From: Agreia sp. COWG
GTDB lineage: Bacteria; Actinomycetota; Actinomycetes; Actinomycetales; Microbacteriaceae
NCBI RefSeq assembly: GCF_904528075.1
Contig: NZ_LR882035.1
Location: forward strand, 2,852,001-2,916,000
Length of the DNA stretch: 64,000 nucleotides
Direction of reading: 5' to 3'
A program made the position numbers and the translations under genes. Shown here in pieces: positions 2,995-42,943 of this stretch; the stretch's first letter is position 1; each line of letters starts with the position of its first letter. The notes below the pieces were generated by a model. The model saw only the letters and a list, made by a program, of their open reading frames with translations, did not search any database and was not told the DNA's origin.

Positions 2995-5900
2995 CTACGA
3001 GCGCTGGTCGATCTCAGACCAGCCCTGCGGCGTGACGTGGATGCGCAGCCGCGACGGGATCTGCTCTTTCATCGCTTCGACGTGGCTGATGAGGCCGATC
3101 GTTCGACCACCCGCGCGCAGCGAATCGAGGGTCGACATGGCGATGGCGAGCGTGTCTGCGTCGAGCGAGCCGAAGCCCTCGTCGATGAACAGCGTGTCGA
3201 GGGTGATGCCCCCGGCCTGGTTCGAGACCACCTCGGCGAGGCCGAGCGCCAGGGCGAGCGACGCCAGAAAGGTCTCACCACCCGACAGCGAGTGCGTGGC
3301 CCGTGCGCGCCCGGTGTGCTCGTCGAGAATGGCGATGCCGAGCCCAGACTGCGCCTTGCGGTACTGGATGGAATCGTCGTGCTCGAGGGTGTAGCGGCCG
3401 TTGGTCATGGTGGCCAGTCGCGCGTTCGCCGCCAGAATGATCTGCTCGAGCTGGGCCGCGAGCACGTACGACTCCAGTCGCATGCGCATGGTGTTCGGCT
3501 CGTTGCCCTCCACCGAGTTGGCGAGCGATCGCAGGGTCTCGAACTCGAGCCGCAGGGCCTCGGATGCCTGCAGCCGGGCCAGCGCATCCGTCACCAGGGT
3601 GCGCACCCGCATCACCCGCTCGTCGAGAGCGCTCGCCGCTATCCTCGCCGCGTCGCGCGCCTCGCGCGCGGCCGTTCGCGATGCGATTGCGTCGTCGAGA
3701 TCGACGAGCATCGCCGGGAGCGACTGCAGCTCGCTCTCGGCCAGGGTGGCTCGAGCGGTTCCCGCGGCCAGATCGTGGGCGCTGATGGCCGAGACGAGGG
3801 CGGCTCGCTGCGCCGGGGTCATGCGTGCGGCGATGGCCTGGTCGGCGTCGGCGAAGCCCTGCTCTGCCAGGTGTTCTCGAAGGGTGGCATCGGCCTGGGC
3901 GAGCGCCCTCTTCTTCTCAGCCACGACGGTGAGGGCCTCGGCATAGGCGCGCGTCGTCTCGAGAACGAGCTGGAGCCGCTCGACGCGGGCCGCCACGGTG
4001 GAGAAGCCGCCGCGATGTTCGGCCAGCCGCTCGGTGATCGCGGCGCTCTCGGCACGCGCCGCAGCGAGCGCTGTTCGGATTGTTTCGCCCGCGGTGCCGA
4101 GGCTCGCCAGCTCGGCCGAGGTCGCATCGATGGCCGCCCGCAGCCCGCTCGAGCGCGTCGCGAGACTCTGCGCGTCGGCCTCGGCCCGTGCGGCGTCGGC
4201 TTCGACCGCCCGCGCGGCGTCGAGTTCGGCATCGATGTCGGTCACGGTGAGACCGCCGGCAGACGCCTCGGCCGCGGCACGAGCGGCGGATGCGCGCTGC
4301 ACCACGAGCCCGGCCTCCGCCAGCGCGTCTGCAGCGCGCCTCTGCTCGAGACGAGCCTCCTCGAGGTCGGCATCGGAGACCGGCTCGCCGAGCTCGGCCG
4401 ACCACGACGTGGGGGCGGGATGCGACGTCGACCCGCAGACCATGCACGGAGTGCCGTCGACCAGCGTGGAGGCCAGCTCGGAGGCGTGGCCGTCGAGCCG
4501 ACGGGTGAGAATGGCGTCGTAGCGCTCGAGGGCCTCCATACCGGCGGCGACGCGGGTCTTCTCTGCGGCATGGGCGACATCGAGCTGTTCGCTGAGGGTG
4601 TCGACGAGAAGCGCCGCTCTGCGCTGCTCTCCCAGGCGCGCGAGCCGCTCGGCGGCCGCAGGCCGAGCGGCGGCCGCCACGAGTGCCGCGTCTCGCAGTT
4701 CGGCGACCTCGTCGAGTTCTGCCGGCAACGACTGTGCGCGGGCGAGCGCGGCGGCGAGTTCTCTCTCGTGCTGCTGTAGCGCCTTGTCATGCGCGCCGAT
4801 CTCTTTCTGCACCGCGGGCAGCCGCGCCTCATCGGCCAGTGCGGACTCCAGGGCGCCGAGCCTGCGGGTGACGTCGTCGGCCTGGGCGGCGAGCCGTGCC
4901 GGCGAGGAGGCAGGTGCGCCCTGTGCGACGTCGGCCTCGGCCTCATCAGCACCAGCACCAGCACCAGCACCAGCACCAGCACCAGCCTCTGCCTCTGCCT
5001 CTGCCTCATCTGCCGGTCGGAGCTCGACGTAGTCTGAGCGCGCATCGTCTTCGTGGCCCGCAGCCGTCTCGAACTGCTGGCGCGCTCCCGCGACCGCCGC
5101 GACGTGCGCCCACACGATCTCGGCGCGGCCCGCCGCCTCGACCCGCGAACGGCTGTCGTCGATGTCATCGTCGCTGCGCTCGAGCTCGACCAGGCGGGCA
5201 GACGCCTCGTCTCGTCTCGTCTGCAGCCGCCGTGTGTTCTCGAGCTCGCGCAGGGCCGCGTCGGCACGATCGAACGCCTCGTCGGCCCCGATCACCCGCC
5301 GCGTGGCCGCCTCGACGTCGCTCTCGACCGCCTCGAGCGCCGCGGCGAACCAGGCCTCGTCGGGAGCCTCCGGCACGACGGAGGTCCGCGGCTCAGATTG
5401 CGCAGCAGTCTGCGCGTCTCTCTCTGAGCCTGCGTCGGACCCCTCGGATCGCGCCAGCGCGGCCGCCGCCACGTGTGCATCGACGATCGATGCGACCTCG
5501 TGCGCCACCCGGCCGAGGGCGTCGCGCGCGCCGGCCTGCCGAGCCTCGAGCGTCTTTCGCCGTTCGACGAGCGCCCTCTCGATATCGGCGAACCGTCGGG
5601 TGCCGAACAGGCTCTGCAGAACGGCCTGACGCTCGTCGTTCTTGGCGTGCAGAAACTTCTGAAAACGGTTCTGCGCAAGCAGGATCACCTGCAGGAACTG
5701 GTCTTTGCTGAGCCCGAGGATGCCGTCGAGCTCTGCCGCGACATCGCGTGGAATGGCGGCGAGGCCGTGCCACTCGCCCTCGTCGTCGCCTCCCGCGCCC
5801 CCCGCGCCCACCCGCACGAAGAGCTCCGCGGTCGTGGGTCTCTTGGTGGTGCCCTCGCCCCGCCTCTTGGGCTGCTCGTATTCGGGCGAGCGCTTCACCC

Positions 5901-28539: not shown

Positions 28540-29520
28540 CTATTCGCTGCCGAACGCGTCTTTCGCGCTCTGCTCTACGACATCGACAATGCGAATGCCG
28601 CCCGCCTGATAGGCGTTCTCGTCCTGACCGAAGACCTTTCCGTCTTTGACGGCCTTCGACCCGGCGAACAGAGAGGTCGCGCCGGCAATCGCCGTCGCCT
28701 CATCGTCGGGTCCGGAGTAGGTCACGAAGATGATGTCGGGGTCGGCTGTGATGACGTCCTCCCTGCTGATCTGGGTGTAGTTCGCCCCGGCGCCGGCGAA
28801 TGCGTTCGAGATGCCGAGTGAGTCGAGCACAGCTTCGTATCCGGCACCGGTGAGGGCATAGACGGTGCCGTCGACGATGCTCACAGACGCCGCGGTGACC
28901 GGTCCATCGTGATTGAGCGCGGCCGCAGCAGCGACCCGGGACCGGAGCTGATCGTTCAGGGTCTTGGCCTTATCCGGCACGTTATAGATGACACCGAGAG
29001 AGTCGACATCGGTGTAGACGGCGTCGATACTGGGCTTCGCTGTGGAGCCTGCGCAGTAGTCGCCCAAGACATACAGGCCGGCGCCTACCGTTTCCAGGTC
29101 GGCTAGCGAGGCAGCACCGTCGCCGGTGAACTGCTGCTCGTCATTGGCGATGAACAGATCTGGGGCGGCCCCCAGAAGGTACTCCTTCGCCGGAGTCCAA
29201 TCGCTCGTGTTATTCGTGAGTGCGGGGTGGGCGGCTGCCTCACCCTCGTCGAGGTCAGAGAGGGCGTAGCCCATTGCGCTGTCGGCCACGCCCAAGGCGT
29301 CGAGGGTGTCAACGATCCCGGGCGCTCCGAGCAGCACTCGCTGCGGCGCCGCGGCATACGTGTGCGAGACGCCACAGCTACTGACGGTGACGGGGTAGCC
29401 GGAGGCTTCGGATGCGATTGGAGCAGTTGCGCTCGTACTGCTCGCACAACCCGAGGCGGCGAAGAGGGTCGCAATGAGCAGAGAGGCACCGAGCAGGGTG
29501 CGTGTTGTTGGGTGAGTCAT
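28540..29520 (-). CDS. siderophore/metal-chelate ABC transporter substrate-binding lipoprotein
   Basis: A 326-residue lipoprotein of the TroA/FecB-like class that captures metal chelates, haem or cobalamin outside the cell. The signal peptide ends in the lipobox AASGC near residue 25. Typical features are the early TVSSCGVSHTYAAAPQRVLL strand, the bi-lobed fold with one long connecting helix, PDLFIANDEQQF, and PDIIFVTYSG near the C-terminus. It is the third gene of a permease-ATPase-binding-protein operon that begins at a Fur-type box facing the RiPP operon. The ligand is unknown; I infer a metal complex, perhaps the product of the divergent genes. Confidence 0.9.
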   Translation of the reverse strand: MTHPTTRTLLGASLLIATLFAASGCASSTSATAPIASEASGYPVTVSSCGVSHTYAAAPQRVLLGAPGIVDTLDALGVADSAMGYALSDLDEGEAAAHPALTNNTSDWTPAKEYLLGAAPDLFIANDEQQFTGDGAASLADLETVGAGLYVLGDYCAGSTAKPSIDAVYTDVDSLGVIYNVPDKAKTLNDQLRSRVAAAAALNHDGPVTAASVSIVDGTVYALTGAGYEAVLDSLGISNAFAGAGANYTQISREDVITADPDIIFVTYSGPDDEATAIAGATSLFAGSKAVKDGKVFGQDENAYQAGGIRIVDVVEQSAKDAFGSE

Positions 29521-29538: not shown

Positions 29539-30351
29539 TCAGGATGCGGACGTGTTTGCGTGAGGGCTACGGTGAGACCGCGAGAGCGGTGGGCCGAGAT
29601 GCACGGCGATGCGTTCGGTGATCGGATTCACACCGATCTCGGCCTCGACTCCATAGACGTCGGCGATGAGCTCGGCCGTGACGACGACCTCCGGGGGGCC
29701 TGCCGCGACCACGCGTCCATGGTTCAGAACGACGACATGATCGCAATACGCCGCGGCCAGCCCGAGGTCATGCAATGCGACCAGGGTTGTCGAAGGCAGA
29801 ACGGAGACGAGCTCGAGCAGCTCGACCTGGGCCAGAACATCGAGATGATTCGTGGGCTCGTCGAGAATCAGCACCGGAGTGTCCTGTGCTAGTGCCCGCG
29901 CCAGAGCCACACGCTGTCGTTCGCCACCCGACAGGCTGCCGAGCGGGCGATGCGCATAGCGCTCGATGCCTGATTGTGCGATCGCGCGCTCGACTGCATC
30001 CGAGTCGGCGGGCGCGGATCTCCGGCCGACCCCGCGGTGAGGTACACGCCCCAGCTCCACCGTCTCGCGTGCCGTGAACTCGAACTCCCGCTGGTCATCC
30101 TGAAGCACCACCGCCGTGCGATGTGCGGCCGCCCGCGCGCTCATGCCCCAGACATCGTCGCCCCCGACAGTGATGGTGCCCGCGCTCGGGCGGCGGGCGC
30201 GATAGACGGCGCGCAGCAGGGTCGACTTTCCCGAGCCGTTCGGGCCGAGTAGCGCGACTGTCGAACCGGTCGGGGCGACAAGAGAGACGTCACGCAACAG
30301 TGCAGTTCCCTGCACCTCGGCACTGACGTGGGTGACCTCGACTCGCATCAT
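29539..30351 (-). CDS. ABC transporter ATP-binding protein (FecE/FepC type)
   Basis: A 270-residue ATPase. Walker A is LLGPNGSGKSTLLRAVY near residue 38, the Q-loop is VVLQDDQREFEFTARETV, the signature is LSGGERQRVALARALAQ, and Walker B is VLILDEPTNHLDV, followed by the switch His (LVALHDLGLAAAYCD). The arrangement is typical of ATPases that drive iron-siderophore, haem or B12 importers. Its start overlaps the permease stop by 4 bp, and the binding-protein gene follows after 18 bp. Confidence 0.94.
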   Translation of the reverse strand: MMRVEVTHVSAEVQGTALLRDVSLVAPTGSTVALLGPNGSGKSTLLRAVYRARRPSAGTITVGGDDVWGMSARAAAHRTAVVLQDDQREFEFTARETVELGRVPHRGVGRRSAPADSDAVERAIAQSGIERYAHRPLGSLSGGERQRVALARALAQDTPVLILDEPTNHLDVLAQVELLELVSVLPSTTLVALHDLGLAAAYCDHVVVLNHGRVVAAGPPEVVVTAELIADVYGVEAEIGVNPITERIAVHLGPPLSRSHRSPHANTSAS

Positions 30352-31436
30352 GGTGCGGTGACCGCCGCCACTGCCGAGACAGGTTCTCGTCTGCGACGGC
30401 GGAGCGATCGACGACCGGTGAGAAGCCAGAGGAAGAACGGCGCCCCGACGGCAGCCGTGACGACTCCGATCGGCAGTTCTGCCGGGGCGCGGACGGTGCG
30501 CGCCACGAGATCGGCCATCATCATGAATACGGCTCCGAGCAGAAGCGACGCGACCAGCATCCGGCGATGGTCGGCACCCACGAGCAATCGGGCCACGTGC
30601 GGCACAACGAGCCCGACGAAGGCGATGCCACCAGCGACGGCCACGATGGAGCCCGTCATGGCCGCGACGACGAGCAAGAGCATCACCTGAAGCCGCGGTA
30701 CATCGATACCGAGTGATGCGGCGAGGTCGTCACCTCCGACCAGGGCGTTGAGAGCGTGCCCAGAGCCGAGCACAACGACCGCTCCAGCCACGACGACGAG
30801 CGTGGGGATGAGGAGGCTCCCACAGTCTGCGCCCCCCACGCTGCCCAGGCTCCAGAAGAGCACCCGCTGAACCTGGTTAGGCGTGGCAATCGTCTGCAGA
30901 AAGTAGGTCATCGAGGAGACGAGATAGCCGATGGCGACGCCGGCCAGGATCAGACGGGTCGGCGGCCACCGGCCGTCGCTGTGCCCCAGGAGAAAGACCA
31001 CCCCGAACGTGGCCAATGCGCCGACGAACGCCGCCACGGCGAGCGATCCCGTGCCGACAGCGCCTCCACCGAGCACGATCACGGCGACCGCGCCGAGCGA
31101 TGCACCGGGGGTGACCCCGATCAGCGATGGATCTCCAAGTGGGTTGCGCACGACCGCCTGAATGACGGCTCCGGTCAGAGCAAGCCCACCGCCCGCGACG
31201 ATCGCGAGGATTGTGCGCGGCACGCGCACAGACCAGACGATCTGGTCTGCCGCGGTCCCGTCTGCTGTTCCGAAGCCGATGTGCGCGACCACAACCCTGA
31301 TCACATCGGGTATCGGCACCCCGACGGAGCCGATCGCCACCGAGGCGACCGCGCAGACGAGCGTGACAAGAACGAGCGCCAGAAGCAGCCCGCGATAGCG
31401 CTTGACGCTCGTAAACGGAGCGGATCGCTCGTTCAT
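30348..31436 (-). CDS. FecCD/BtuC-type ABC transporter permease
   Basis: A 362-residue integral membrane permease with about ten transmembrane segments. Family features: WSVRVPRTILAIVAGGGLALTGAVIQAVVRNPLGDPSLIGVTPGA-like segment near the start (the BtuC/FecCD hallmark PRTL...NPLADPxLLGVSxGA) and GGIAFVGLVVPHVARLLVGADHRRML near the end. It is first in the importer operon. The ATG at 31436 has an AAAGG upstream; a longer frame to 31496 would include the operator. One permease gene is present, so a homodimer is expected. A 15-bp Fur-family-type box lies 39 bp upstream. Confidence 0.93.
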   Translation of the reverse strand: MNERSAPFTSVKRYRGLLLALVLVTLVCAVASVAIGSVGVPIPDVIRVVVAHIGFGTADGTAADQIVWSVRVPRTILAIVAGGGLALTGAVIQAVVRNPLGDPSLIGVTPGASLGAVAVIVLGGGAVGTGSLAVAAFVGALATFGVVFLLGHSDGRWPPTRLILAGVAIGYLVSSMTYFLQTIATPNQVQRVLFWSLGSVGGADCGSLLIPTLVVVAGAVVVLGSGHALNALVGGDDLAASLGIDVPRLQVMLLLVVAAMTGSIVAVAGGIAFVGLVVPHVARLLVGADHRRMLVASLLLGAVFMMMADLVARTVRAPAELPIGVVTAAVGAPFFLWLLTGRRSLRRRRREPVSAVAAVTAP

Positions 31437-31474
31437 GGGGCCGCCTTTCGAGGGTTGGAGTGTGGTTCGCTTAA

Positions 31475-31489
31475 TGAGAACCATACTCA
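31475..31489. promoter_or_regulatory. Fur-family-type 7-1-7 box of the importer operon
   Basis: TGAGAACCATACTCA, an inverted repeat of two 7-mers around one base, extended by TTAA/TTAA flanks so that 8-bp perfect arms lie at 31471-31478 and 31486-31493. It differs by one base from the reverse complement of the box at 31560-31574. On the minus strand a TTGTTC-18-TATGGT promoter would overlap it. Fur, Zur and Mur proteins recognise 15-bp 7-1-7 repeats such as TGATAATnATTATCA. The exact regulator is inferred. Confidence 0.75.
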
Positions 31490-31521
31490 TTAACAATCAA
31501 CAGGAACAATTCGGCGTCCAC

Positions 31522-31576
31522 TTGCGAGCGACAGCGACATCCCGCTAGCGTGACCCTATTGAGAATGGTTCTCAAT
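31522..31576 (+). promoter_or_regulatory. putative RiPP operon promoter with Fur-family-type box
   Basis: TGAGAATGGTTCTCA at 31560-31574, with perfect 8-bp arms ATTGAGAA (31558-31565) and TTCTCAAT (31569-31576). A weak promoter, TTGCGA (31522-31527), 18-bp spacer, TAGCGT (31546-31551), would start transcription near 31558, inside the box, so binding would repress. The box is the same 15-mer as the importer box with one change. The promoter hexamers are tentative; the box is clear. Confidence 0.75.
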
Positions 31577-31593
31577 ATAGAAAGGACGATGTC

Positions 31594-31785
31594 ATGCAGA
31601 ACATCACCCTCGAACCGATCGCTCCCGCTGGTGTGCTCAGTGCACCCCAGGGGCCCGGAACGAACGCGTTGGTCCACAACCCGTTCGCCTTCGAGTCGAT
31701 CGCTCCGGCTGGTGTGCTGAGCGCACCGCAGGGCCCTGGCACGAACGCACTCGTGCACAACCCCTTCGCCTTCGACGCGAAGTGA
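31594..31785 (+). CDS. tandem-core RiPP precursor peptide candidate
   Basis: A 63-residue peptide read as two identical 25-residue modules. Each begins IAPAGVLSAPQG, continues PGT, and ends NALVHNPFAF; they occupy residues 9-33 and 36-60. Before them is MQNITLEP, between them ES, after them DAK. The copies differ at 11 of 25 codons, all synonymous, so both modules are under selection. Each module has one Ser and one Thr, one His, several Xaa-Pro sites, and no Cys. An AAAGGA ribosome site lies 7 bases before the ATG. Genes for two YcaO proteins and a ThiF-like partner follow, so I interpret it as a modified-peptide precursor; Ser/Thr azolines are possible. There is no obvious separate leader. 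The peptide matches no precursor family I know. Confidence 0.8.
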   Translation: MQNITLEPIAPAGVLSAPQGPGTNALVHNPFAFESIAPAGVLSAPQGPGTNALVHNPFAFDAK

Positions 31786-31790
31786 GAACC

Positions 31791-31824
31791 CGGTGGTCGC
31801 TTCGCCCAGGCGAGGCGGCCACCG
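31791..31824 (+). terminator. strong hairpin after the precursor gene (attenuator or stabiliser)
   Basis: Positions 31791-31805 pair with 31810-31824 in a 15-bp stem with two G-U pairs and a CCAG tetraloop. It begins 6 bases after the precursor stop and has no U-tract. Such hairpins between a precursor gene and its enzymes raise the precursor-to-enzyme mRNA ratio in many peptide operons. Confidence 0.75.
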
Positions 31825-31860
31825 CACCGTCCCCCTCCAAAGAGAGATCATCCGAGTTCT

Positions 31861-32619
31861 ATGCGTGCCTTCGCCCCCGGTTTCCACCTGTATGCCGTCG
31901 CCCCCGGTGAGTGGCGCCTCGCCGAGCCCGGGGAGCGCTTCCAGCGCCTTGCCATGGCCGATGAGCGACTCGCAGACCTCGCCGAGGCGCTCGCATCCGG
32001 CGCCGACATCACGACGCTGGGGCCGGATGCCGCTGCACTCGAACAGATACTCGTCGACCGAGGCGCATTCACCCTCCCGCAGACGACGGTGGCGCCACCG
32101 CGACGGGTGAGGATCGCGGGCGATGGACCCGTCGCCTCGGCGCTGAGGTCAATCCTCTCTGCACAGGTGGGCCTGATCCGCGAGGCATCCTCAGACGAGA
32201 CCGTCGATGCGATCGTCTCAATCGATGCCTGGTACCGCGACGCGCACTGGGTGCAACTGGCCGCACGGGGGGTTCCTCTGCACCGCTGCCACAGCGACGG
32301 GACCGCGCTCTATATCGGACCCTTCTCGGCCGGTCCCGGTGCGGCAGGCTACGGGGACTACCGCGGACGACGGCGAGCTGCATCACCTCTGGTGGTGGAG
32401 CTCGATGCTCTCTGGGCTCACCTCGACACGAAACCGCCCGAGCCTCTGTCAGCCTCGCCAGGCATGGCCGCCATCGCTGCAGCGCTCATCGCGTCAGATC
32501 TCTTTGCCTGGTCGGCAGGAGAACCCGTGCCCCACCGAACCACCGAGGTGGAGCTGCGAGCCGACGGCACGATCCATCGGCACCCGGTCCTTCCCCTGCC
32601 ACATGTGACCGCGCTGTGA
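31861..32619 (+). CDS. ThiF/E1-like RiPP cyclodehydratase partner protein
   Basis: A 252-residue protein. Residues about 1-75 (GFHLYAVAPGEWRLAEPGE, then LADLAEALASGADI) look like a peptide-recognition winged-helix module as found at the start of azoline-forming C proteins. Residues about 82-95 (RVRIAGDGPVASAL) form a Gly-rich Rossmann turn like the E1/ThiF fold, but no catalytic Cys or ATP-binding Arg finger is obvious. Such Ocin-ThiF-like proteins bind the precursor and activate a YcaO enzyme. The assignment rests on these weak motifs plus position directly before a hydrolase and two YcaO genes. The stop overlaps the next GTG start by 4 bp. Only a weak GAGAG ribosome site precedes the ATG. 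Confidence 0.65.
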   Translation: MRAFAPGFHLYAVAPGEWRLAEPGERFQRLAMADERLADLAEALASGADITTLGPDAAALEQILVDRGAFTLPQTTVAPPRRVRIAGDGPVASALRSILSAQVGLIREASSDETVDAIVSIDAWYRDAHWVQLAARGVPLHRCHSDGTALYIGPFSAGPGAAGYGDYRGRRRAASPLVVELDALWAHLDTKPPEPLSASPGMAAIAAALIASDLFAWSAGEPVPHRTTEVELRADGTIHRHPVLPLPHVTAL

Positions 32620-34106
32620 TCCAGGCGAATCAACGGCTGATCGCCCCCGATGGCATCGCGCTCGCCTATGACCTCCATCGTCCCGCATCGACAGGCAAGG
32701 TCCCGACCGTCGTTCTTCGAACCCCCTACGGTCGGTCCAAGCATCTCGAGGAGGGCCGCGGCTGGACCCGGCGGGGCTACGCGTTCGTTGTCGGAGACGT
32801 GCGCGGACGGTACGACTCCGACGGAATCTGGGAGCCGTACCTGAACGAGCGTGCCGACGGCGCACGGTTGCTCGACTGGATCGTGGAGCAACCGTGGAGC
32901 GACGGCCGGATTGTGGTGATCGGCGGCTCCTACTCCGGATACACGGCGTGGGCGATGGCCGTCGAGCGCCCCGCCGCGATCGCCGCGATCGTGAGCCTGG
33001 GGCCATCCATGTCACTCGCGCGAACCAAGTTCTCCCCCTCCGGCATCCTGCGCCTCGGCGAGCACGCGGCCTGGTGGGCCGAGCGGGCAGATTCTCGGAC
33101 CAGCCGCGACGGCTTGGCCGCCCTCATTTTCGGCGAGGACCCCACGCTGCTCAATCACCTGCCTGTGCTCGAAATCGGTGACCGGCTCGGAGTGCGACTG
33201 CCGGGCTGGTCTGCCGTAGTCGAGGCGGGTCCGGATGCCGTCGCGGGCGACGAGATCACGGCCAGCGAGCTTGCAGCGGTTCGGGCACCGAGCCTGCACG
33301 TCGGCGGGTGGCACGACCTGCTCGTCAGCGAGACCTTGGCGCAGTGGAAGCTGACCGGCGACGCAGACACCCCGAGAAGGCTCCTCATCGGTCCATGGAT
33401 GCACGATCTCGTCTTCTCCGAAACGACGCGCGTCGGCGCACTCGACCATGGGGACCATTCCCGCGTGGACTGGGCGAGCGAACTGCTCGACTGGCTGACG
33501 GATGCGCTGGCCGGTCGTCTGCCCCTGCGCCGGAGCGATACCTTCGTCATCGGCACCGAGAGCTGGCGACGAGGCGAGGAATGGCCACCCCCCAGCGCCC
33601 CCGAGCATCACCTGCTCGGCTCGGGCATCCTACGCAGCGCCCCCCGCAATCCCTTCCCGAGTCGTGCGGAGGCAGCCGAGCGACAATCGCTTCTCGAGCG
33701 CTCCGACGCCGTGCGATTCACGGTGCCGACCGCTGCGACCCGATTGGAAGGCTGGGCGCAGCTGCACTTCGCCGGCACTGCAGACTCAGCGGTAGCCGAC
33801 TGGATCGCGCGACTGCTCGTCGTCGGGACAGGCGGATCCGTCGTCGAGATCGCGGTCGCGGAGGCGACCTCGGGTGCGCACCTCGCACAGTTGGAGATCG
33901 CGCTCGGCCCGTTGTCGTTCGGCCTCCGCACCGGCGAACGACTGATTCTGGAGATCACCGCGAACGACCTACCCCGTCTCGCACGCAATACCGGCGGCGA
34001 CCGTTACCGACTCGCAGCCGACGAGCTTCCCCACCTCATCGTGCAGACTCTCCACGATGTGCGGCTGACTCTGCCCGCGATTCCCGACGAAGAACGGCCC
34101 TCGTGA
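32616..34106 (+). CDS. CocE/NonD family X-Pro-type hydrolase
   Basis: A 496-residue serine hydrolase of the CocE/X-Pro dipeptidyl-peptidase class. The nucleophile elbow is GGSYSGYTAW near residue 106; VVGDVRGRYDSDG is the loop with the RGR-S-G hallmark, and GGWHDLL and LIGPWMHD precede the His region. The C-terminal third is the jelly-roll lid domain (VRFTVPTAATRLEGWAQLHF). Relatives cleave acylated esters or Xaa-Pro dipeptides. Inside this operon it could trim the modified peptide, whose modules hold AP, GP and NP bonds; that is inference. GTG start overlaps the previous stop; its own stop overlaps the next GTG. Confidence 0.85.
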   Translation: MIQANQRLIAPDGIALAYDLHRPASTGKVPTVVLRTPYGRSKHLEEGRGWTRRGYAFVVGDVRGRYDSDGIWEPYLNERADGARLLDWIVEQPWSDGRIVVIGGSYSGYTAWAMAVERPAAIAAIVSLGPSMSLARTKFSPSGILRLGEHAAWWAERADSRTSRDGLAALIFGEDPTLLNHLPVLEIGDRLGVRLPGWSAVVEAGPDAVAGDEITASELAAVRAPSLHVGGWHDLLVSETLAQWKLTGDADTPRRLLIGPWMHDLVFSETTRVGALDHGDHSRVDWASELLDWLTDALAGRLPLRRSDTFVIGTESWRRGEEWPPPSAPEHHLLGSGILRSAPRNPFPSRAEAAERQSLLERSDAVRFTVPTAATRLEGWAQLHFAGTADSAVADWIARLLVVGTGGSVVEIAVAEATSGAHLAQLEIALGPLSFGLRTGERLILEITANDLPRLARNTGGDRYRLAADELPHLIVQTLHDVRLTLPAIPDEERPS

Positions 34107-35449
34107 TCAACCTCGACCGCCTCATCGACCCTCGCACCGGCATCATCACGGCATCCGAGGCACAACCATCCAGCGCCGGCGACCCTCGGTTCTGGCGATC
34201 ACACGGCGCCACCGTGGCGCACACGGAACGCTTCGCCCCTTGGCGCGCCGACGGGTTCGGATTCGGCGCCTCTTTCGGAAATCTCGAGGCGGCTCGTGGC
34301 GCGGCACTCGGAGAGGCAGCGGAACGTTACTGCGGCAATGCGGTACCGGCCGGGCTCCCGTTCCTCAGCTGGAACGATCTGGCCGAGCGCGGTGACGACG
34401 CCCTGGACCCCGATGCTCTCGCGCTTTACGCGACGTGGCAATATGAGCTCTCCGGGTTTCCGTTCGCCCATTTCGACCGCGATCTGCCCGTCAGCTGGGC
34501 GCGCGGCCGCGACCTGTGCACGAAGGAACCGGTCTGGGTGCCGGCTTCACTCGTCTATCTCGACGGAGCAGCCGCGCGTCGCCCAGACGAACGCCCCACG
34601 CACTCCCTGATGTACTCCGGCATCGCTGCCGGAACCGATCGGGAGCATGCTGAGACCGGCGCGCTTGACGAGCTGATGGAACGCGACGCGACCACGATCT
34701 GGTGGGCATCCGGCTCCTCGACGGTCGAGCTGGACGATAGCGGCGTGGTCGCCGGAATGATGGGCGCCAACGACCTCGACATCCGGTTGCTGCAGATTCC
34801 AACGGACCTGCCGGGCCACGTCATCGCTGCCGTCATCGAAGACGGTGATCCGACACGCGACGGACTCCTCGCTTTCGGATCGGCGTGCCGAACCGATCCG
34901 GTTGCTGCGGCACGGAAAGCCGTTATGGAAGCCCTCGGTCTACGTCGGGTGACCCTGCAACTACTCGACCCGAATTCCGACGTCTGGCGGGCGGTCAAGA
35001 CCGACGCCATCGACGCGCACGTGTTCTTGCCCTACCGAGCAGACCGCCGCTATGGCGACGACATCCCAGATGATTTCCGCACCCTCGCCGATCTGCCGTC
35101 GATCGCGCAGCTGTACCTCGATCAGCGCATGGCGACCGCCATTCTGCCGCGCCTAAGACCCACCGAGCGACAGCCGCTCACCGCGCTTAATCCCATTGCC
35201 GGCGACCGGATCGCCGAACTGGCGGCCCGTGGCATCCGAGTCGTCTCGATCGACGTGACCACCGACGATATTCGGGCCTGCGGACTGACCGTCGTTCGCG
35301 TCATCGCGGCCGGCCTGATCGGCAACGGCCCGCCGGCCTTTCCCCTACGCGGCTCTGATCGCTACGTCGATGTTCCGCGGACGCTCGGCTGGAACCGCCA
35401 ACCGGCGTCGACTCGAGACCTGTACCCCTTTCCGCTTCCCCTCGCCTGA
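34103..35449 (+). CDS. YcaO cyclodehydratase-type protein 1
   Basis: A 448-residue YcaO protein. ATP-site motifs: EAARGAALGEAAERYCGNA near residue 65, the ETGALDELMERDATTIWW block near 190, and AVMEALGLRR near 275. It ends YPFPLPLA, a PxPxP tail that sits in the active site of azoline-forming YcaOs. These enzymes phosphorylate a peptide amide to make azolines or other backbone changes. The GTG at 34103 overlaps the previous stop by 4 bp; YcaO protein 2 follows after 11 bp. It probably modifies the divergent-core precursor at 31594. Which YcaO does which step is unknown. Confidence 0.9.
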   Translation: MINLDRLIDPRTGIITASEAQPSSAGDPRFWRSHGATVAHTERFAPWRADGFGFGASFGNLEAARGAALGEAAERYCGNAVPAGLPFLSWNDLAERGDDALDPDALALYATWQYELSGFPFAHFDRDLPVSWARGRDLCTKEPVWVPASLVYLDGAAARRPDERPTHSLMYSGIAAGTDREHAETGALDELMERDATTIWWASGSSTVELDDSGVVAGMMGANDLDIRLLQIPTDLPGHVIAAVIEDGDPTRDGLLAFGSACRTDPVAAARKAVMEALGLRRVTLQLLDPNSDVWRAVKTDAIDAHVFLPYRADRRYGDDIPDDFRTLADLPSIAQLYLDQRMATAILPRLRPTERQPLTALNPIAGDRIAELAARGIRVVSIDVTTDDIRACGLTVVRVIAAGLIGNGPPAFPLRGSDRYVDVPRTLGWNRQPASTRDLYPFPLPLA

Positions 35450-35460
35450 GAAGACCACCT

Positions 35461-36732
35461 ATGTGCTACACCCAACCTCCCCTGCTCGCGCCGCTCATCG
35501 GAGCACGGAGCGGAGTGATCCGCGCTCTCGAACCTCGACTCATCCCCACCCACTTCCCCGAACCATTCGATCTGCTGCACGCCGTCATCTCTGACAGCTC
35601 CGCCTTCTCGCCATGGAAGTCGGATTCCAGCGGGGCGGGATACTCCTTCGGTGACGCGGCCGCCATGAACGGGGCAGCCATCGGCGAGGCCATCGAACGC
35701 TACTGCGGCAACGTCGTCACGGGGCCGTTGCTGCGGGCATCGTCGCACGGCCTCGGCGCGCGCGATCACATCTCGCCCGAGGATCTGGCTCTGCCTGTCC
35801 TGTCGCCCTTCACCCCGGACACCGTCACCGACTGGGCCGTCGGCACCGACGCGGCAACCGGCGACGACGTCTTCGTTCCCGCCGCCTCGGTCTGGGTCTC
35901 GTACAGCCTGCAGGTGCGGCCGATCCTGCATCCGGTGATTCAAGCGGGCCTCGCGACAGAACGCTCGCTCGACGACGCCCGCTTCGGCGGGCTGCGAGAG
36001 ATCGTCGAGCGTGACGCGATGACTCGGGCATGGACGGGCGGTGGGGGATTCATTGCGCTCACCGTGCCTTCGTGGCTCGACGCCTTCGCCGCGGGTCCCC
36101 GAGCGCTGCTCGACACCCGGTGGCTGCTCTTTCCGACAGACACGGGTATTCCCGTGATCGGAGCGCTTACCCACGATCGCAGCACGGGCTACCTCACGCT
36201 GGGAATCGGGACAGGGGAAGAACCGGAGGCCTGCGCGCTGAAGGCGCTGGGAGAAGCACTGCAACTGCAGCTCTTCGTCAGCGACCTCGACGCTGAAGAG
36301 GGACCGTACGCACGGGTCGCGGCCCACCCGCAGAGCCCGCTCGCCGCTCACCGCGCCGATCGCCGATATTCGGGCTCCTACGCCGCAGACCTCTCCGACG
36401 TTCTCGACTACGGGTGTCATCTGCAGTTGCATCTCGACCCGCTCATACAGTCAACGTTTCTTGAGGAGCTCGATCGCAGCATCATCGGCAGCACGACTCT
36501 CGCCGATGTTGTGCCCGGTCCGAACCTCGAGATCCTCCTCGAGCGGTTCGCCGAGCTCGGTGATCGAGTCGTCACCGTCGACGTCACGACCGACGACATC
36601 CGCCCACACGGACTGCACGTCGTGCGGATGATCGTGCCCGGCCGCCTCTCGAATGCACCGCACTCGCTGCCTTTCCTCGGCGGGCGGCGCCCAATTCAGC
36701 CGGTGTTCCGACCGACACCGATGCCGCACTGA
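35461..36732 (+). CDS. YcaO cyclodehydratase-type protein 2
   Basis: A 423-residue second YcaO, clearly a paralogue of the first but divergent. Corresponding motifs: AAIGEAIERYCGNVV near residue 78, GGLREIVERDAMTRAW near 178, ACALKALGEALQLQL near 258, and the shared DVTTDDIRPHGLHVVR. It ends FRPTPMPH, again a PxPxP tail with one extra residue. Two YcaOs in one cluster suggest either a heteromer or two different backbone modifications. The stop TGA overlaps the next ATG by one base, so an exporter is translated with it. Confidence 0.9.
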   Translation: MCYTQPPLLAPLIGARSGVIRALEPRLIPTHFPEPFDLLHAVISDSSAFSPWKSDSSGAGYSFGDAAAMNGAAIGEAIERYCGNVVTGPLLRASSHGLGARDHISPEDLALPVLSPFTPDTVTDWAVGTDAATGDDVFVPAASVWVSYSLQVRPILHPVIQAGLATERSLDDARFGGLREIVERDAMTRAWTGGGGFIALTVPSWLDAFAAGPRALLDTRWLLFPTDTGIPVIGALTHDRSTGYLTLGIGTGEEPEACALKALGEALQLQLFVSDLDAEEGPYARVAAHPQSPLAAHRADRRYSGSYAADLSDVLDYGCHLQLHLDPLIQSTFLEELDRSIIGSTTLADVVPGPNLEILLERFAELGDRVVTVDVTTDDIRPHGLHVVRMIVPGRLSNAPHSLPFLGGRRPIQPVFRPTPMPH

Positions 36733-37937
36733 TGCTCGGCCGATACCTGTGGTCCCGAGGCATCTCCTGGACCGGTAACGCGCTCACTGCGGTAGCGCTG
36801 CCGATCATGCTCTACCAGCTCACGGGCAGCGCGGCACTCACAGGATTGCTTGCCGCCATGGAAGCGGTGCCGTATCTCGTGCTCGGTCTGCCCGTAGGGG
36901 CGCTCGTCGATCGATGGAACACCAGGGCCACCCTCGTTCTCTCGAGCATCGCGAGCGCCATCGCCGCCGCAAGCATTCCGCTGGCTGCAGCCTTCGGCGC
37001 CCTGACGCCATCACACCTCATCATCGTCGCCGCCTCGACATCGGTGGCGTTCGTCTTTTTCGACGCCGCGAGCTTTGGCATGATCCCCGCCATCGTCAGT
37101 CGTGATGCCATCGCAGCGGCGACCGCCCGAATGATGACGATCAGCACCCTCATCGGCATCGCGGGGCCGCCCATCGGCGGCGTGCTCGTGTCGACAGGCG
37201 GAGGTTCGCTCGCACTGCTCGTCGACGCGCTCTCCTACCTGATCGGCGCCCTTCTTCTCGCGGGCATCAGCACACGCACGTCGGAGCGAAGCACGAAGGG
37301 GCCGAGCGCGACCACGATCAGAGAGGACATAGCCGAAGGGCTCCGCTACATCCGTTCCATGCCCGTCATCCGAGATCTCACCTTTCTCGGCATCGGCAAC
37401 AGCCTCGCCGGTGGCGCCGTCTCGGGCCTTGTCGTCGTTGCGGCTGTGCGCTCGCTCGGACTCGATGCCGACTCGTCGGCCATCGGAGTCCTTTTCGGCG
37501 GGGCGGCCATAGGGGCACTTGCCGCATCCTGGCTTATCGGCCCCCTTCAGAAGCGCTCCGGCCTCGGTGCCATCACGGTCGGTGCGCTCCTGCTGTCGGG
37601 CGCCGCCATCTCCGGATGGGCATTCGCCCCCTCGTTCCTAGCCGGGCTGGTAGCTCTCACACTCTGGCAGCTGGGCACGACGATCGTCTCGCTCAACGGC
37701 ATCATCGTGCGCCAGAGCCTCACACCTCCCGGGCTTCAGGGCCGAGTCAACACCACCGCCCGCATGATCGCCTGGGGCGGGCAACCACTGGGCGCCGGGG
37801 CTGCCGGGTTGCTGGCCGACAGCCTCGGAATCCGCGAAGCCCTGCTCGGTGCCGCGTTGGTAGCTCTCGGCACAGCAGTCACTGCTGCTGTGCTGCCCGT
37901 CTCCCGCAGTGGCCGAATCGCGCAGCTCACCGGGTGA
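36732..37937 (+). CDS. MFS transporter, probable RiPP exporter
   Basis: A 401-residue major facilitator with about 12 hydrophobic segments. It starts MLGRYLWSRGISWTGNALTAVALPIMLYQLTGS, typical of the enterobactin-exporter-like/MDR MFS group, and has VLGLPVGALVDRWNTRATL, the A-motif loop between helices 2 and 3. It is the last gene of the RiPP operon, linked by a TGATG overlap to YcaO 2. Relatives often export siderophores or self-made toxins. Export of the modified peptide is inferred from position. Confidence 0.88.
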   Translation: MLGRYLWSRGISWTGNALTAVALPIMLYQLTGSAALTGLLAAMEAVPYLVLGLPVGALVDRWNTRATLVLSSIASAIAAASIPLAAAFGALTPSHLIIVAASTSVAFVFFDAASFGMIPAIVSRDAIAAATARMMTISTLIGIAGPPIGGVLVSTGGGSLALLVDALSYLIGALLLAGISTRTSERSTKGPSATTIREDIAEGLRYIRSMPVIRDLTFLGIGNSLAGGAVSGLVVVAAVRSLGLDADSSAIGVLFGGAAIGALAASWLIGPLQKRSGLGAITVGALLLSGAAISGWAFAPSFLAGLVALTLWQLGTTIVSLNGIIVRQSLTPPGLQGRVNTTARMIAWGGQPLGAGAAGLLADSLGIREALLGAALVALGTAVTAAVLPVSRSGRIAQLTG

Positions 37938-37957: not shown

Positions 37958-39145
37958 CTACAGGCCGAAGGCCGCGCCCGCCTTGGCGAGCGGCTTCGTG
38001 CCGCCCTCGGCTGTGAGGCCGGTCCAGGAATCCTCGCCGTCGACGTGGGTGGATGCGAGGGCCCCCTTCGCGCGGGCCGCGGCGACGCGCTCGGCGTGGC
38101 TGGGCGGGTTGCTCGGAACACCGGCGGGGCGCTTCGACTCGTTCTCGGCGCGGAGCGCGGGAACGATCTCCTCGGCCAGGATGTCGATCTGCTCGAGTAC
38201 CGTCTTCAGCGGCAGTCCGGCGTGGTCGATGAGGAACAGCTGGCGCTGGTAGTCGCCCACGTGGTCGCGCATGGCCGCGTAACGGTCGATGACCTCCTGC
38301 GGCGATCCCACGGTGAGCGGCGTCTGCTCGGTGAAGTCCTCCATCGTGGGGCCGTGGCCATAGACGGGGGCGTTGTCGAAGAACGGCCGAAACTCGTCCT
38401 TCGCAGCCTGCGAGTTCTTGCGGGCGAAGAACTGCCCACCGAGTCCCACGATCGCCTGATCGGCCCGTCCGTGACCGTAGTTCTCGTAGCGGCTGCGGTA
38501 GAGCGACACCATCTGCTCGGTGTGCCGGATCGGCCAGAAGATGTTGTTGTGAAAGAAGCCGTCGCCGTAGTATGCGGCCTGCTCGGCGATCTGCGGGGTG
38601 CGGATCGAGCCGTGCCAGACGAAGGGGGCCACCCCATCGAGGGGTCGCGGGGTCGAGGTGAAGCCCTGCAGCGGGGTGCGGAAGTTTCCGGCCCAGTCGA
38701 CCACGTCTTCCTCCCACAGGCGACGCAGCAGCGCGTAGTTCTCGGTGGCGAGCTCGAGGCCCTTGCGGATGTCCTTGCCGAACCAGGGATAGACGGGGCC
38801 GGTGTTGCCGCGGCCCATCATCAGGTCCATGCGGCCGTCGCTGATGACCTGCAGCATCGCGTAGTCCTCGGCGATCTTCACCGGGTCGTTCGTGGTGATG
38901 AGGGTCGTCGATGTCGAGAGAACGATGTTCTTCGTGGTGCCCGCGAGATAGCCCAGCATGGTGGTCGGCGACGACGTGACGAACGGCGGGTTGTGGTGCT
39001 CGCCACTGGCAAAGACGTCGAGTCCGGCCTGATCGGCGTGCTCGGCGATCGCGATCATGGCCTTGGTGCGCTCAGTGTCGCTGGGGGTGTGACCCGTCGT
39101 CGGGTCTGTCGTGACGTCTCCGACGCTGAAGATTCCGAACTGCAT
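37958..39145 (-). CDS. LLM class flavin-dependent oxidoreductase
   Basis: A 395-residue luciferase-like flavoprotein monooxygenase. It begins MQFGIFSVGDVTTDP; ERTKAMIAIAEHADQAGLDVFASGEHHNPPF is the classic family block with the active His pair, followed by STSTTLITTNDPVKIAEDYAMLQVISDGRMDLMMGRGNTGPVYPWFG. It uses FMNH2 and O2, or F420 in other branches; the substrate is unknown. ATG 39145 has GGAG 9 bases upstream. The last 100 residues are a family-variable tail. It is transcribed the same way as the formaldehyde dehydrogenase, but a long hairpin separates them. Confidence 0.9.
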   Translation of the reverse strand: MQFGIFSVGDVTTDPTTGHTPSDTERTKAMIAIAEHADQAGLDVFASGEHHNPPFVTSSPTTMLGYLAGTTKNIVLSTSTTLITTNDPVKIAEDYAMLQVISDGRMDLMMGRGNTGPVYPWFGKDIRKGLELATENYALLRRLWEEDVVDWAGNFRTPLQGFTSTPRPLDGVAPFVWHGSIRTPQIAEQAAYYGDGFFHNNIFWPIRHTEQMVSLYRSRYENYGHGRADQAIVGLGGQFFARKNSQAAKDEFRPFFDNAPVYGHGPTMEDFTEQTPLTVGSPQEVIDRYAAMRDHVGDYQRQLFLIDHAGLPLKTVLEQIDILAEEIVPALRAENESKRPAGVPSNPPSHAERVAAARAKGALASTHVDGEDSWTGLTAEGGTKPLAKAGAAFGL

Positions 39146-39257
39146 GCTCAACCACTCCTCGAACTTTTCTATGCGTTTGCATATATGCGAACAAGAACGC
39201 GGCCCGGTGTGAATCTATTCCCGGCAATTCCCCACGCGTCGCGGGCACCGGATGCGC

Positions 39258-41349: not shown

Positions 41350-42300
41350 TCAGCGCCCCAGCGCCTGCACGACCACCGTGGCGGCGCGGGCCACGAGCGC
41401 GTTGTCGTAGTCCGCATCCTCCGTGGTGCGCGTCGACATGATCACCAGGATGAGCGGAGATCCGGTCGGTGGCCACAGCACGGCGATATCGTTGCGGCTA
41501 CCATAGCCGCCGGCGCCGGACTTGTCGGCCACAGCCCAATCGGCGGGAACGCCCGCCCTGATCAGCTGCTCTCCGGTGGCGTTGCCGGTCATCCAATCGA
41601 CGAGCTGGGCCTGCTGCGGAGCGCCGAGCGTATCGGTCGTGAGCAGCGCTCCCAGGTCGATGCCGAATGCCCGCGGGGTGGTCGTGTCGCGCACATCGCC
41701 GGGGATCGCGCTGTTCAGCTCGGTCTCGACGCGGTCGGAGCTGGTCGTGGTGTCGCCGAGCTCGCGCAGGGCGGCGGCGAATCCCTCGGGCCCACCCAGG
41801 CGCTCGAACACCAGATTGGCCGCCGTGTTGTCACTGAACCGCACGGCTGCCTCCGCGGCGGCCCGCAGCGTGATGCCGGAGTCGACGCTCAGCTCGGTGA
41901 CCGGTGAGTTCGGCAGCACCTCGTCCGCCCCGTAGAAGACGGTCTTGTCGAGCTCGTCGTCGCTGACGGTACGCAACAGGATGCCCGCCGCGATCGCCTT
42001 GAAGGTCGACGCGTAGGCGAAGCGTTCGTCGGCCCGATAGGCGAGCTCTGATCGCGAGATCACATCGAGCGCGTACACGCCCAGACGGGCATCGAACTCC
42101 TGCTCGAGCTGCGCGAACTGGGGAGCTGCGTCGAGGGGAGGACTGGCGACCGGCGACCCCACGGTCGCGGTCCCAGCCGCTGTCGCGGTGCCGGCGGGGC
42201 CCGGTGAACCAGCGCCGACGCACCCGGCCAGCCCCGCCAGGAGCACGAGCCCGACGACCGCGAATCGGATGCTTCTTCGAGCCGATGAGTTCATTGCCAT
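41350..42300 (-). CDS. class A beta-lactamase, lipoprotein type
   Basis: A 316-residue exported serine beta-lactamase. The signal peptide ends in the lipobox LAGLAGC, so it is probably membrane-anchored. All class A marks are present: STFK (SxxK), SDN in RFSDNTAANL, ExxLN in ETELNSAIPGD, and KSG in VADKSGAGGYGSRND. These predict a working enzyme against penicillin-type beta-lactams, unlike the partly matching lipoprotein at the left of the window. ATG codons at 42300 and 42294 are possible. It is a single gene divergent from the sigma factor gene. Confidence 0.93.
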   Translation of the reverse strand: MAMNSSARRSIRFAVVGLVLLAGLAGCVGAGSPGPAGTATAAGTATVGSPVASPPLDAAPQFAQLEQEFDARLGVYALDVISRSELAYRADERFAYASTFKAIAAGILLRTVSDDELDKTVFYGADEVLPNSPVTELSVDSGITLRAAAEAAVRFSDNTAANLVFERLGGPEGFAAALRELGDTTTSSDRVETELNSAIPGDVRDTTTPRAFGIDLGALLTTDTLGAPQQAQLVDWMTGNATGEQLIRAGVPADWAVADKSGAGGYGSRNDIAVLWPPTGSPLILVIMSTRTTEDADYDNALVARAATVVVQALGR

Positions 42301-42418
42301 AGCCCGAGTGTGCCAGCCCGCCTGCCGCCTGATGGCAGCACCGCCGAAAAATCGACCGTGCTCGCAGCGGACATCGACCTCACATTCGCTCGCTCCATGG
42401 CGTCTACTTGATGTGACC

Positions 42419-42943
42419 ATGAAAATGCCCTTCGAACGCGTCGTCGCCCTGCACGGCCCCTCGGTGCTGCGCGTGTGCCGTGCGGTGGTCGGTGTCGACG
42501 ACGCCGACGACGCCTGGTCGGAGACATTCATCGCCGCGCTCCGCGCCTATCCCGGGCTGCCCGACGACGCGAACGTGGAGGCGTGGCTCGTCACCGTCGC
42601 GCACCGCAAGGCCATCGACCTGCTGCGCGCGCGCAACCGCCGGGCGATCACGGTCGAGACGCTGCCAGAGCCCGCGGCTCGCGACGGCATCGCCAGCCAG
42701 AAGGGCCCGGCCGACGACCTCGAGCTGATGGATGCCGTGGGCCGGCTCCCCGAGCGGCAGCGCCAGTGCGTGGCCTATCACTACCTCGGCGGGCTGCCTT
42801 ACAGAGACGTCGCCGAGCTGGTCGGCGGAACGGCCGAGGCAGCGCGGCGCGCGGCGGCAGACGGCATCCGGTCTCTGCGCCGCAGCTATGGCGACGGCGA
42901 GAACCTGAGCAACAGCAACAACACGGAAGGAGCAGCACGATGA
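42419..42943 (+). CDS. ECF-type sigma factor heading an alkylation-repair operon
   Basis: A 174-residue sigma-70-family factor with region 2 (SVLRVCRAVVGVDDADDAWSETFIAALRAYP, then VEAWLVTVAHRKAIDLLRARNRR) and region 4 (AVGRLPERQRQCVAYHYLGGLPYRDVAELVGGTAEAARRAAADGIRSLR). There is no adjacent anti-sigma factor gene. Its stop overlaps the start of an O6-alkylguanine methyltransferase gene and an alkB gene follows, so it is the likely regulator of a DNA-alkylation response. The ATG at 42419 begins the normal family N-terminus. How it senses damage is not visible. Confidence 0.9.
   Translation: MKMPFERVVALHGPSVLRVCRAVVGVDDADDAWSETFIAALRAYPGLPDDANVEAWLVTVAHRKAIDLLRARNRRAITVETLPEPAARDGIASQKGPADDLELMDAVGRLPERQRQCVAYHYLGGLPYRDVAELVGGTAEAARRAAADGIRSLRRSYGDGENLSNSNNTEGAAR

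Follow-up and report, generated by a model that had tools for sequence, protein, structure and literature searches.

The stretch of the Agreia sp. COWG genome analysed here (64 kb of contig NZ_LR882035.1; hereafter, the window) carries a YcaO-containing operon for a ribosomally synthesized and post-translationally modified peptide (RiPP) and, divergent from it, an importer operon of the ATP-binding cassette (ABC) type. On the + strand (31594-37937), we confirmed an operon encoding, in this order, a precursor peptide, an E1/ThiF-like protein, an S15/CocE hydrolase, two YcaO proteins and a major facilitator superfamily (MFS) protein; on the - strand, the genes for a FecCD permease, an ATPase and a binding protein run from 31436 down to 28540. 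Each operon is preceded by a box of the type bound by the zinc regulator Zur. The operon belongs to a class of clusters that is already known, that of streptamidine, and what appears to be new is the predicted link of this family to Zur. The features, in window coordinates, are as follows.

28540..29520, - strand: FecB/BtuF-type substrate-binding protein of the importer (PF01497, E 5.4e-21; best NCBIfam match TIGR03868, below cut-off)
29539..30351, - strand: importer ATPase, FecE type (PF00005, E 7.5e-33)
30348..31436, - strand: importer permease, FecCD type (PF01032, E 7.2e-90)
31475..31489, no strand: Zur-type box 2, TGAGAACCATACTCA, 38 bases ahead of the permease start, one mismatch to the published TGANAANNNTTNTCA
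31522..31551, + strand: predicted promoter (-35 TTGCGA, 31522-31527; 18-base spacer; -10 TAGCGT, 31546-31551), a prediction only
31560..31574, no strand: Zur-type box 1, TGAGAATGGTTCTCA, exact to the published consensus, ending 19 bases short of the precursor ATG
31594..31785, + strand: AmiA-like precursor peptide of 63 amino acids, motif B, two modules (NF040715, 127.5 bits, cut-off 45; alignments)
31861..32619, + strand: AmiB-like protein with leader-binding and E1-like fold (model and fold searches)
32616..34106, + strand: AmiC-like S15/CocE hydrolase (PF02129, E 1.4e-42; TIGR00976 above cut-off; aligned with cocaine esterase)
34103..35449, + strand: YcaO 1, AmiD-like (PF02624, E 3.8e-49; TIGR03604 above cut-off)
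35461..36732, + strand: YcaO 2 (PF02624, E 6.1e-41; TIGR03604 below cut-off)
36732..37937, + strand: MFS exporter-type protein (PF07690, E 5.5e-28; weak likeness to EntS, NF007792, 94.6 bits, below its cut-off of 324)
37958-39151, - strand: luciferase-like monooxygenase gene, downstream of the operon and facing it, taken as outside the operon

A YcaO operon of the streptamidine family

Judged by its sequence, the operon is one more member of a known group, the two-YcaO branch of the streptamidine family, whose precursors carry motif B and which was described by Russell et al. 2021 (PMC8442711). Precursors of this family carry one to three motifs, and FecBCDE-type genes are frequent in its loci; it was counted in more than 230 species, its role was left open by the authors, and the only product characterised in the available part of the paper is streptamidine, which is of the motif-A type (PMC8442711). 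Among all NCBIfam models, the Agreia precursor matched the two streptamidine models and no others, and it scored far above the cut-off of NF040715, "streptamidine-related RiPP repeat protein". As in the motif-B branch, the precursor contains the ALV motif, here in two NALV modules, two YcaO genes and a hydrolase gene adjoin it, the AmiB-like protein resembles in its fold the leader-binding and E1-like parts of TruD (4-315), and FecBCDE-type genes lie next to the operon. The original prediction had described a YcaO-type cluster whose tandem precursor lacks Cys and which lies divergent from an ABC importer, and the gene and family searches bear this out. It had also stated that this exact gene set fitted no class known to it, naming a match to a characterised RiPP class as grounds for giving up that claim; the NF040715 match and the published motif-B branch (PMC8442711) are such grounds, so the novelty claim falls and an unknown RiPP class is ruled out.

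The search for relatives returned at least 369, of which the best 80, in 78 loci, were kept; 28 of these loci (L005-L031 and L068) form the motif-B set used below. Relatives of the precursor and of YcaO 2 are named, among the matches listed, from Clavibacter, Frankia, Rhodococcus, Streptomyces, Amycolatopsis, Nocardia, Microbacterium, Arthrobacter and others, the closest named ones being from Plantibacter and Microbacterium. In a sample of 396 genomes from the phylum, NF040715 was found in one, the source genome itself, and NF040714 in two. All eight other proteins of the two operons in the window have relatives in 24 of the 28 motif-B loci. Co-occurrence of importer and precursor, a check proposed in the original prediction, was looked at in the same set: a FecCD or FecB match is present in 25 loci, and the three loci lacking one (L016, L023 and L025) each end at a contig end. 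The two YcaO proteins differ in the ExxQ motif, which in YcaO proteins serves ATP binding: the Gln of this motif is gone from YcaO 1 in 26 of 29 aligned sequences and is invariant in all 25 aligned YcaO 2 sequences.

Several variants were seen along the way. In an Acrocarpospora locus (L007), upstream of position 5893, there is a motif-B precursor with four modules, above the range of one to three given in PMC8442711. Two loci of the Rhodococcoides fascians type (L010 and L011) keep all the enzymes and yielded, upstream of 6243, no NALV precursor by the pattern used; a possible precursor there, guessed by eye from another frame, is a variant of the form ...TNSTVLNPFAF.... A further architecture, with AmiB, AmiC, two YcaO1-like genes and FecBCD, is found in Actinomadura and relatives (L041, L043, L051, L054, L071 and L081); it has Zur-type boxes upstream, and a NALV-type precursor was looked for in these loci and not found, L051 having a candidate precursor that ends in VHTSNHATLRNASVAWRKR. 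Elsewhere in the window, an open reading frame on the - strand (41350-42531) has, by eye, the look of a class A beta-lactamase.

Zur-type boxes at the ami promoters

Two published Zur boxes were available for comparison, tGaNNatSatNNtCa, from chromatin immunoprecipitation (ChIP) in S. coelicolor, and taaTGaNAANNNTTNtCANta, from the znuA genes of 17 genomes (PMC5472717); the mycobacterial box is of closely similar form (PMC7174638). With at most one mismatch allowed, TGANAANNNTTNTCA has exactly two matches in the 64-kb window, at 31475-31489 and 31560-31574, that is, one before each of the divergent operons. Box 1 starts 14 bases past the start of the predicted -10 hexamer.

In the whole source genome, the strict pattern TGANAAYNRTTNTCA, which was devised after promoters had been seen, occurs in four places, compared with none for the reversed-pattern control; the published consensus was met later and was applied unchanged to the window and the upstream sets. 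These four places are the ami operon, a site ~70 bases before a ZnuA gene, one ~16 bases before the gene for a CobW_C protein, and one ~22 bases before a second FecBCD importer. The boxed ZnuA gene heads an operon of the order ZnuA-ZnuC-ZnuB-Fur-family gene, the last of these being one of three Fur-family genes in the genome. The second importer (L113, G000:C1:3351500-3360000), with FecCD, FecB and ATPase genes, has a perfect Zur-type box at local position 4252, before its permease; the models closest to it, all below cut-off, are those of a putative F420-0 transporter, and no YcaO gene adjoins it. A looser genome scan with the box of the window and three mismatches (25 matches on one strand and 24 on the other, against 7 and 8 for the control) was used only for choosing places.

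In six more motif-B genomes, the pattern TGRNAAYNRTTNYCA was found in 22 places versus 3 for the reversed control: five at ami operons, eight beside zinc genes, one at a FecBCD importer (Nocardia), one at a secreted protein (Clavibacter) and seven at unrelated genes. Among the boxed zinc genes, those of the CobW type were seen in Plantibacter, Clavibacter, Rhodococcus and Nocardia; znu genes were seen in Plantibacter and in Arthrobacter, there next to a Fur-family gene, ABC-3/ATPase genes in Nocardia, and a CobW gene together with paralogues of the ribosomal proteins L28, S14 and S18 in Rhodococcus. Genes of these kinds, namely znuABC, CobW-type and ribosomal-paralogue genes, are listed as belonging to Zur regulons (PMC7174638, PMC6103462). 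The ami box of Clavibacter, TGAGAATGGTTCTCG, is one letter off the pattern and stands outside the count of 22. A query with the CobW-type protein gave matches in 14 of 20 genomes with few clean promoters, the longest-open-reading-frame rule having often taken wrong frames, and was not counted.

For the motif-B set, we compared the 600 bases preceding the gene for the AmiB-like protein in the window and in 27 loci (L023, which has no upstream DNA, was left out). The best match to TGANAANNNTTNTCA had 0, 1, 2, 3 and 4 mismatches in 7, 9, 10, 1 and 1 of the 28 sequences, respectively, so that 26 lie within two mismatches; the averages over 100 dinucleotide shuffles were 0.01, 0.15 and 1.84 sequences with up to 0, 1 and 2 mismatches. 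Several of the two-mismatch boxes are perfect palindromes, for example TGGAAACCGTTTCCA, and the six core letters of the box are present in 25 of the 28 regions. The box starts 14-19 bases past the start of the -10 hexamer in 22 of 28 promoters, a geometry that rests on hexamers picked after several promoters had been seen.

The streptamidine-type branch has the box as well. The motif-A precursor was found in 38 of 295 genomes, and the set examined comprises 30 loci (all 30 of those taken), from 30 genomes of one genus, presumed to be Streptomyces, together with three copies in genome G139 (L121, L122 and L123). The ChIP consensus is matched exactly in 21 of these 33 upstream regions, with one mismatch in 11, and is absent from one, whereas single-base shuffles gave none within one mismatch. 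Relative to TGANAANNNTTNTCA, 0, 1, 2 and 4 mismatches were found in 4, 21, 7 and 1 regions (32 of 33 within two); dinucleotide shuffles gave 0.71 within two mismatches. By eye, many motif-A promoters have the box between TTGCGG and TAGTGT.

Across all 78 YcaO loci, a broad form of the box, widened after lineage variants had been seen, gave 71 matches versus 0.7 in ten two-base-block shuffles. Of the 60 loci in which FecCD or FecB was matched, 46 have this box, as do 3 of the 18 others; when motif B is left out, these numbers become 22 of 35 and 2 of 15. Six matches in motif-B loci lie off the ami and importer promoters, and one of these, 14 kb away in L024, is the promoter of znu genes with a Fur-family gene.

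Some of the boxes lie away from ami operons. A Nocardia genome contains an importer comparable to that of L113, also with a Zur-type box (L155). In Clavibacter genome G397 (L124), a Zur-type box at local position 1501 lies just before the gene for a secreted protein that matches no NCBIfam model strongly, and a similar protein is encoded in the source genome (L114, local 799-2148), with a weaker box, CGAGAAGAGTTCTCA, ~42 bases before it; as a guess, this secreted protein might handle zinc.

Predicted core peptide and proposed function

The core was placed by alignment with motif-A precursors, which read ...QLA-HLSATH-SNALVENPF..., HLSATH being the published streptamidine core (PMC8442711). In the same register, the Agreia precursor reads ...VLS-APQGPG-TNALVHNPF..., two times, which places APQGPG, as the predicted core, at residues 17-22 and again at 44-49. 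In 59 related precursors, gathered via shared words and hence biased toward likeness, APQGPG occupies the six aligned positions in 56 of 106 modules and ALQGPG in 33; position 3 is Gln in 104 modules, position 2 is Pro or Leu (streptamidine has Leu2), and a single core is repeated in 45 of the 47 two-module precursors. The core thus appears to be APQGPG, present twice per precursor, and its near-invariance would argue against a fast-changing toxin. With one dehydration, as in a six-membered amidine, the predicted [M+H]+ of APQGPG is 508.2514, and that of APQGPGTNALVHNPFAF minus water is an m/z of 1719.8601; the same arithmetic yields the published value, 647.3260, for streptamidine (PMC8442711).

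In the proposed mechanism, zinc-bound Zur would repress both divergent operons, and loss of zinc would free both. This is predicted from the boxes themselves and from their position just past the putative promoter: a repressor bound at box 1, just past the -10 hexamer, would block transcription. The YcaO proteins would have the precursor presented to them by the AmiB-like protein, the S15 hydrolase would free the core, and one of the YcaO proteins would close a ring on the new N-terminus, roles suggested by the published ami gene deletions and by homology. The MFS protein would export the peptide, zinc would be bound outside, and FecBCD would bring the loaded peptide back; genes for both an importer and an exporter, as expected for a zincophore, are present in the cluster. 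The original prediction supposed that the peptide is made under metal limitation; the promoter fits this part, the Zur-type boxes suggesting zinc as the metal. It also put forward re-import of the peptide together with its metal, or else a role as a toxin, both of which are conjectural. We consider that there is about an even chance that the motif-B operon with its Zur boxes is switched on under zinc starvation and that its peptide is a zinc carrier returning via FecBCD. A wider version would extend ribosomal zincophore production under Zur to the entire streptamidine family, covering both branches as well as the additional architecture that combines FecBCD with two YcaO genes, with streptamidine as the spent remnant of a loaded carrier after its re-import and cutting; this version is possible and yet doubtful. 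It would explain why metal binding by streptamidine was not seen, why deletion of the importer abolished all compounds of the streptamidine pathway, and why a dehydrogenase is required for streptamidine, an unoxidised product (PMC8442711).

A number of observations weigh against a zinc carrier under Zur. Binding of streptamidine to Fe, Co, Cu, Mg, Mn, Ni or Zn was not detected, the null mutant behaved as the wild type under metal starvation, and the output of streptamidine in the authors' cultures was called substantial (PMC8442711). A znuABC system might cover for the lost one and so account for the unchanged mutant. The APQGPG core contains no His, Cys, Asp or Glu, so the way in which it would hold zinc is unclear. 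The Fur-family protein encoded beside znuABC scored below the cut-off of every NCBIfam Zur model. As for the boxes, of the 26 strict-pattern places counted over seven genomes, 7 fall within or next to unrelated genes, and one precedes a protein of no known family; 3 of the 28 motif-B upstream regions (L010, L011 and L016) lack a full box, as do one motif-A copy of 33 (L123 in G139) and, for the broad box, 13 of the 35 importer-bearing loci outside motif B. Furthermore, related loci are not independent, and the box counts therefore overstate the case.

In one alternative, which we regard as somewhat unlikely, the operon is under Zur but the peptide serves in signalling or competition when zinc is scarce, and the importer either has another substrate or recycles the peptide. 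The undetected metal binding and the lack of a metal phenotype speak for it, signalling or development was suggested by Russell et al. (PMC8442711), and Zur regulons also hold genes outside uptake (PMC6103462). Yet the importer accompanies the precursor in 25 of the 28 motif-B loci and boxes are rare where no FecCD or FecB match is present, the core hardly varies in the relatives found, unlike usual arms-race peptides, and streptamidine showed no antibacterial or antifungal activity (PMC8442711). That the core lies elsewhere in the module, for example at HNPFAF after NALV, and that the product is not streptamidine-like, is unlikely. HNPFAF was the initial guess, the stretch following NALV is also conserved, and no isolated motif-B product is reported in the available part of PMC8442711; however, the alignment with motif-A precursors, where HLSATH directly precedes SNALVENPF, shifts the core to APQGPG, just before TNALVHNPF, with Leu or Pro where streptamidine has Leu2, and HNPFAF was dropped.

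Zinc itself could be the wrong metal if the box belonged to another Fur-family regulator or the operon to an iron system, which we consider improbable. The source genome encodes three Fur-family proteins, Fur-family boxes resemble one another, and FecBCD importers are named for iron, but the other strict-pattern places in this genome are the znuABC-type operon with its Fur-family gene, the CobW-type gene and the FecBCD importer, and elsewhere the boxes lie at L28, S14 and S18 paralogues and znu genes, which are under Zur in M. smegmatis and others (PMC7174638, PMC6103462). An IdeR/DtxR iron box was ruled out for the window, in which the motif has no match within three mismatches. Highly improbable, finally, is an ordinary azol(in)e antibiotic or toxin of the linear azole type with an importer nearby by accident: although YcaO 1 passes the SagD-type cut-off and its C-terminus is rich in proline, the precursor has no Cys, the streptamidine-aligned core has no Ser or Thr, the operon has no dehydrogenase gene, and, among ten loci in which YcaO genes were the only matches to the genes searched, nine lack the box (L064 has one).

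Present at nearly all examined promoters of the two branches, the boxes suggest zinc starvation as the likely condition, together with a likely sensor, and thereby tell when to look for the peptide and what to measure. Among the papers listed in searches of the open-licence literature by title and abstract start, none links streptamidine or its family to Zur, and the word Zur is absent from the main text of Russell et al. (PMC8442711). If the peptides do carry zinc, they would be gene-encoded, YcaO-made zinc carriers, for which no precedent was found among the same listed papers, and a Zur-controlled ribosomal zincophore system spanning the family would be the first of its kind.

Comparison with known systems

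The closest characterised system is the streptamidine ami cluster of S. albidoflavus J1074, which shares with the Agreia operon an ALV-motif precursor, AmiB, the hydrolase AmiC, the YcaO protein AmiD and FecBCDE-type genes (PMC8442711); a Zur-type box is shared with the motif-A relatives examined. The Agreia operon differs in having two YcaO genes and an MFS protein instead of the AmiT1/T2 ABC transporters; it contains no AmiE-type dehydrogenase gene, and its two-module precursor is of the motif-B type, with Gln where streptamidine has Ser3 (PMC8442711). Bottromycin and klebsazolicin contain an amidine ring made by YcaO proteins (PMC8442711), a ring that is predicted for the Agreia product, and their partner genes are unlike those in the window. 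From the NF040715 motif-B relatives in Clavibacter, Amycolatopsis, Nocardia and others, which have the same gene set, there is no difference of principle.

With respect to regulation, the nearest counterparts are coelibactin and ethylenediamine disuccinate (EDDS), both of which are made without a ribosomal precursor. Zur controls the synthesis of these zinc carriers, of coelibactin in S. coelicolor and of EDDS in Amycolatopsis japonicum (PMC5472717, PMC12161575, PMC6103462). For the Agreia operon, such control over biosynthesis is predicted, the peptide is encoded by a gene, and the binding of zinc is putative.

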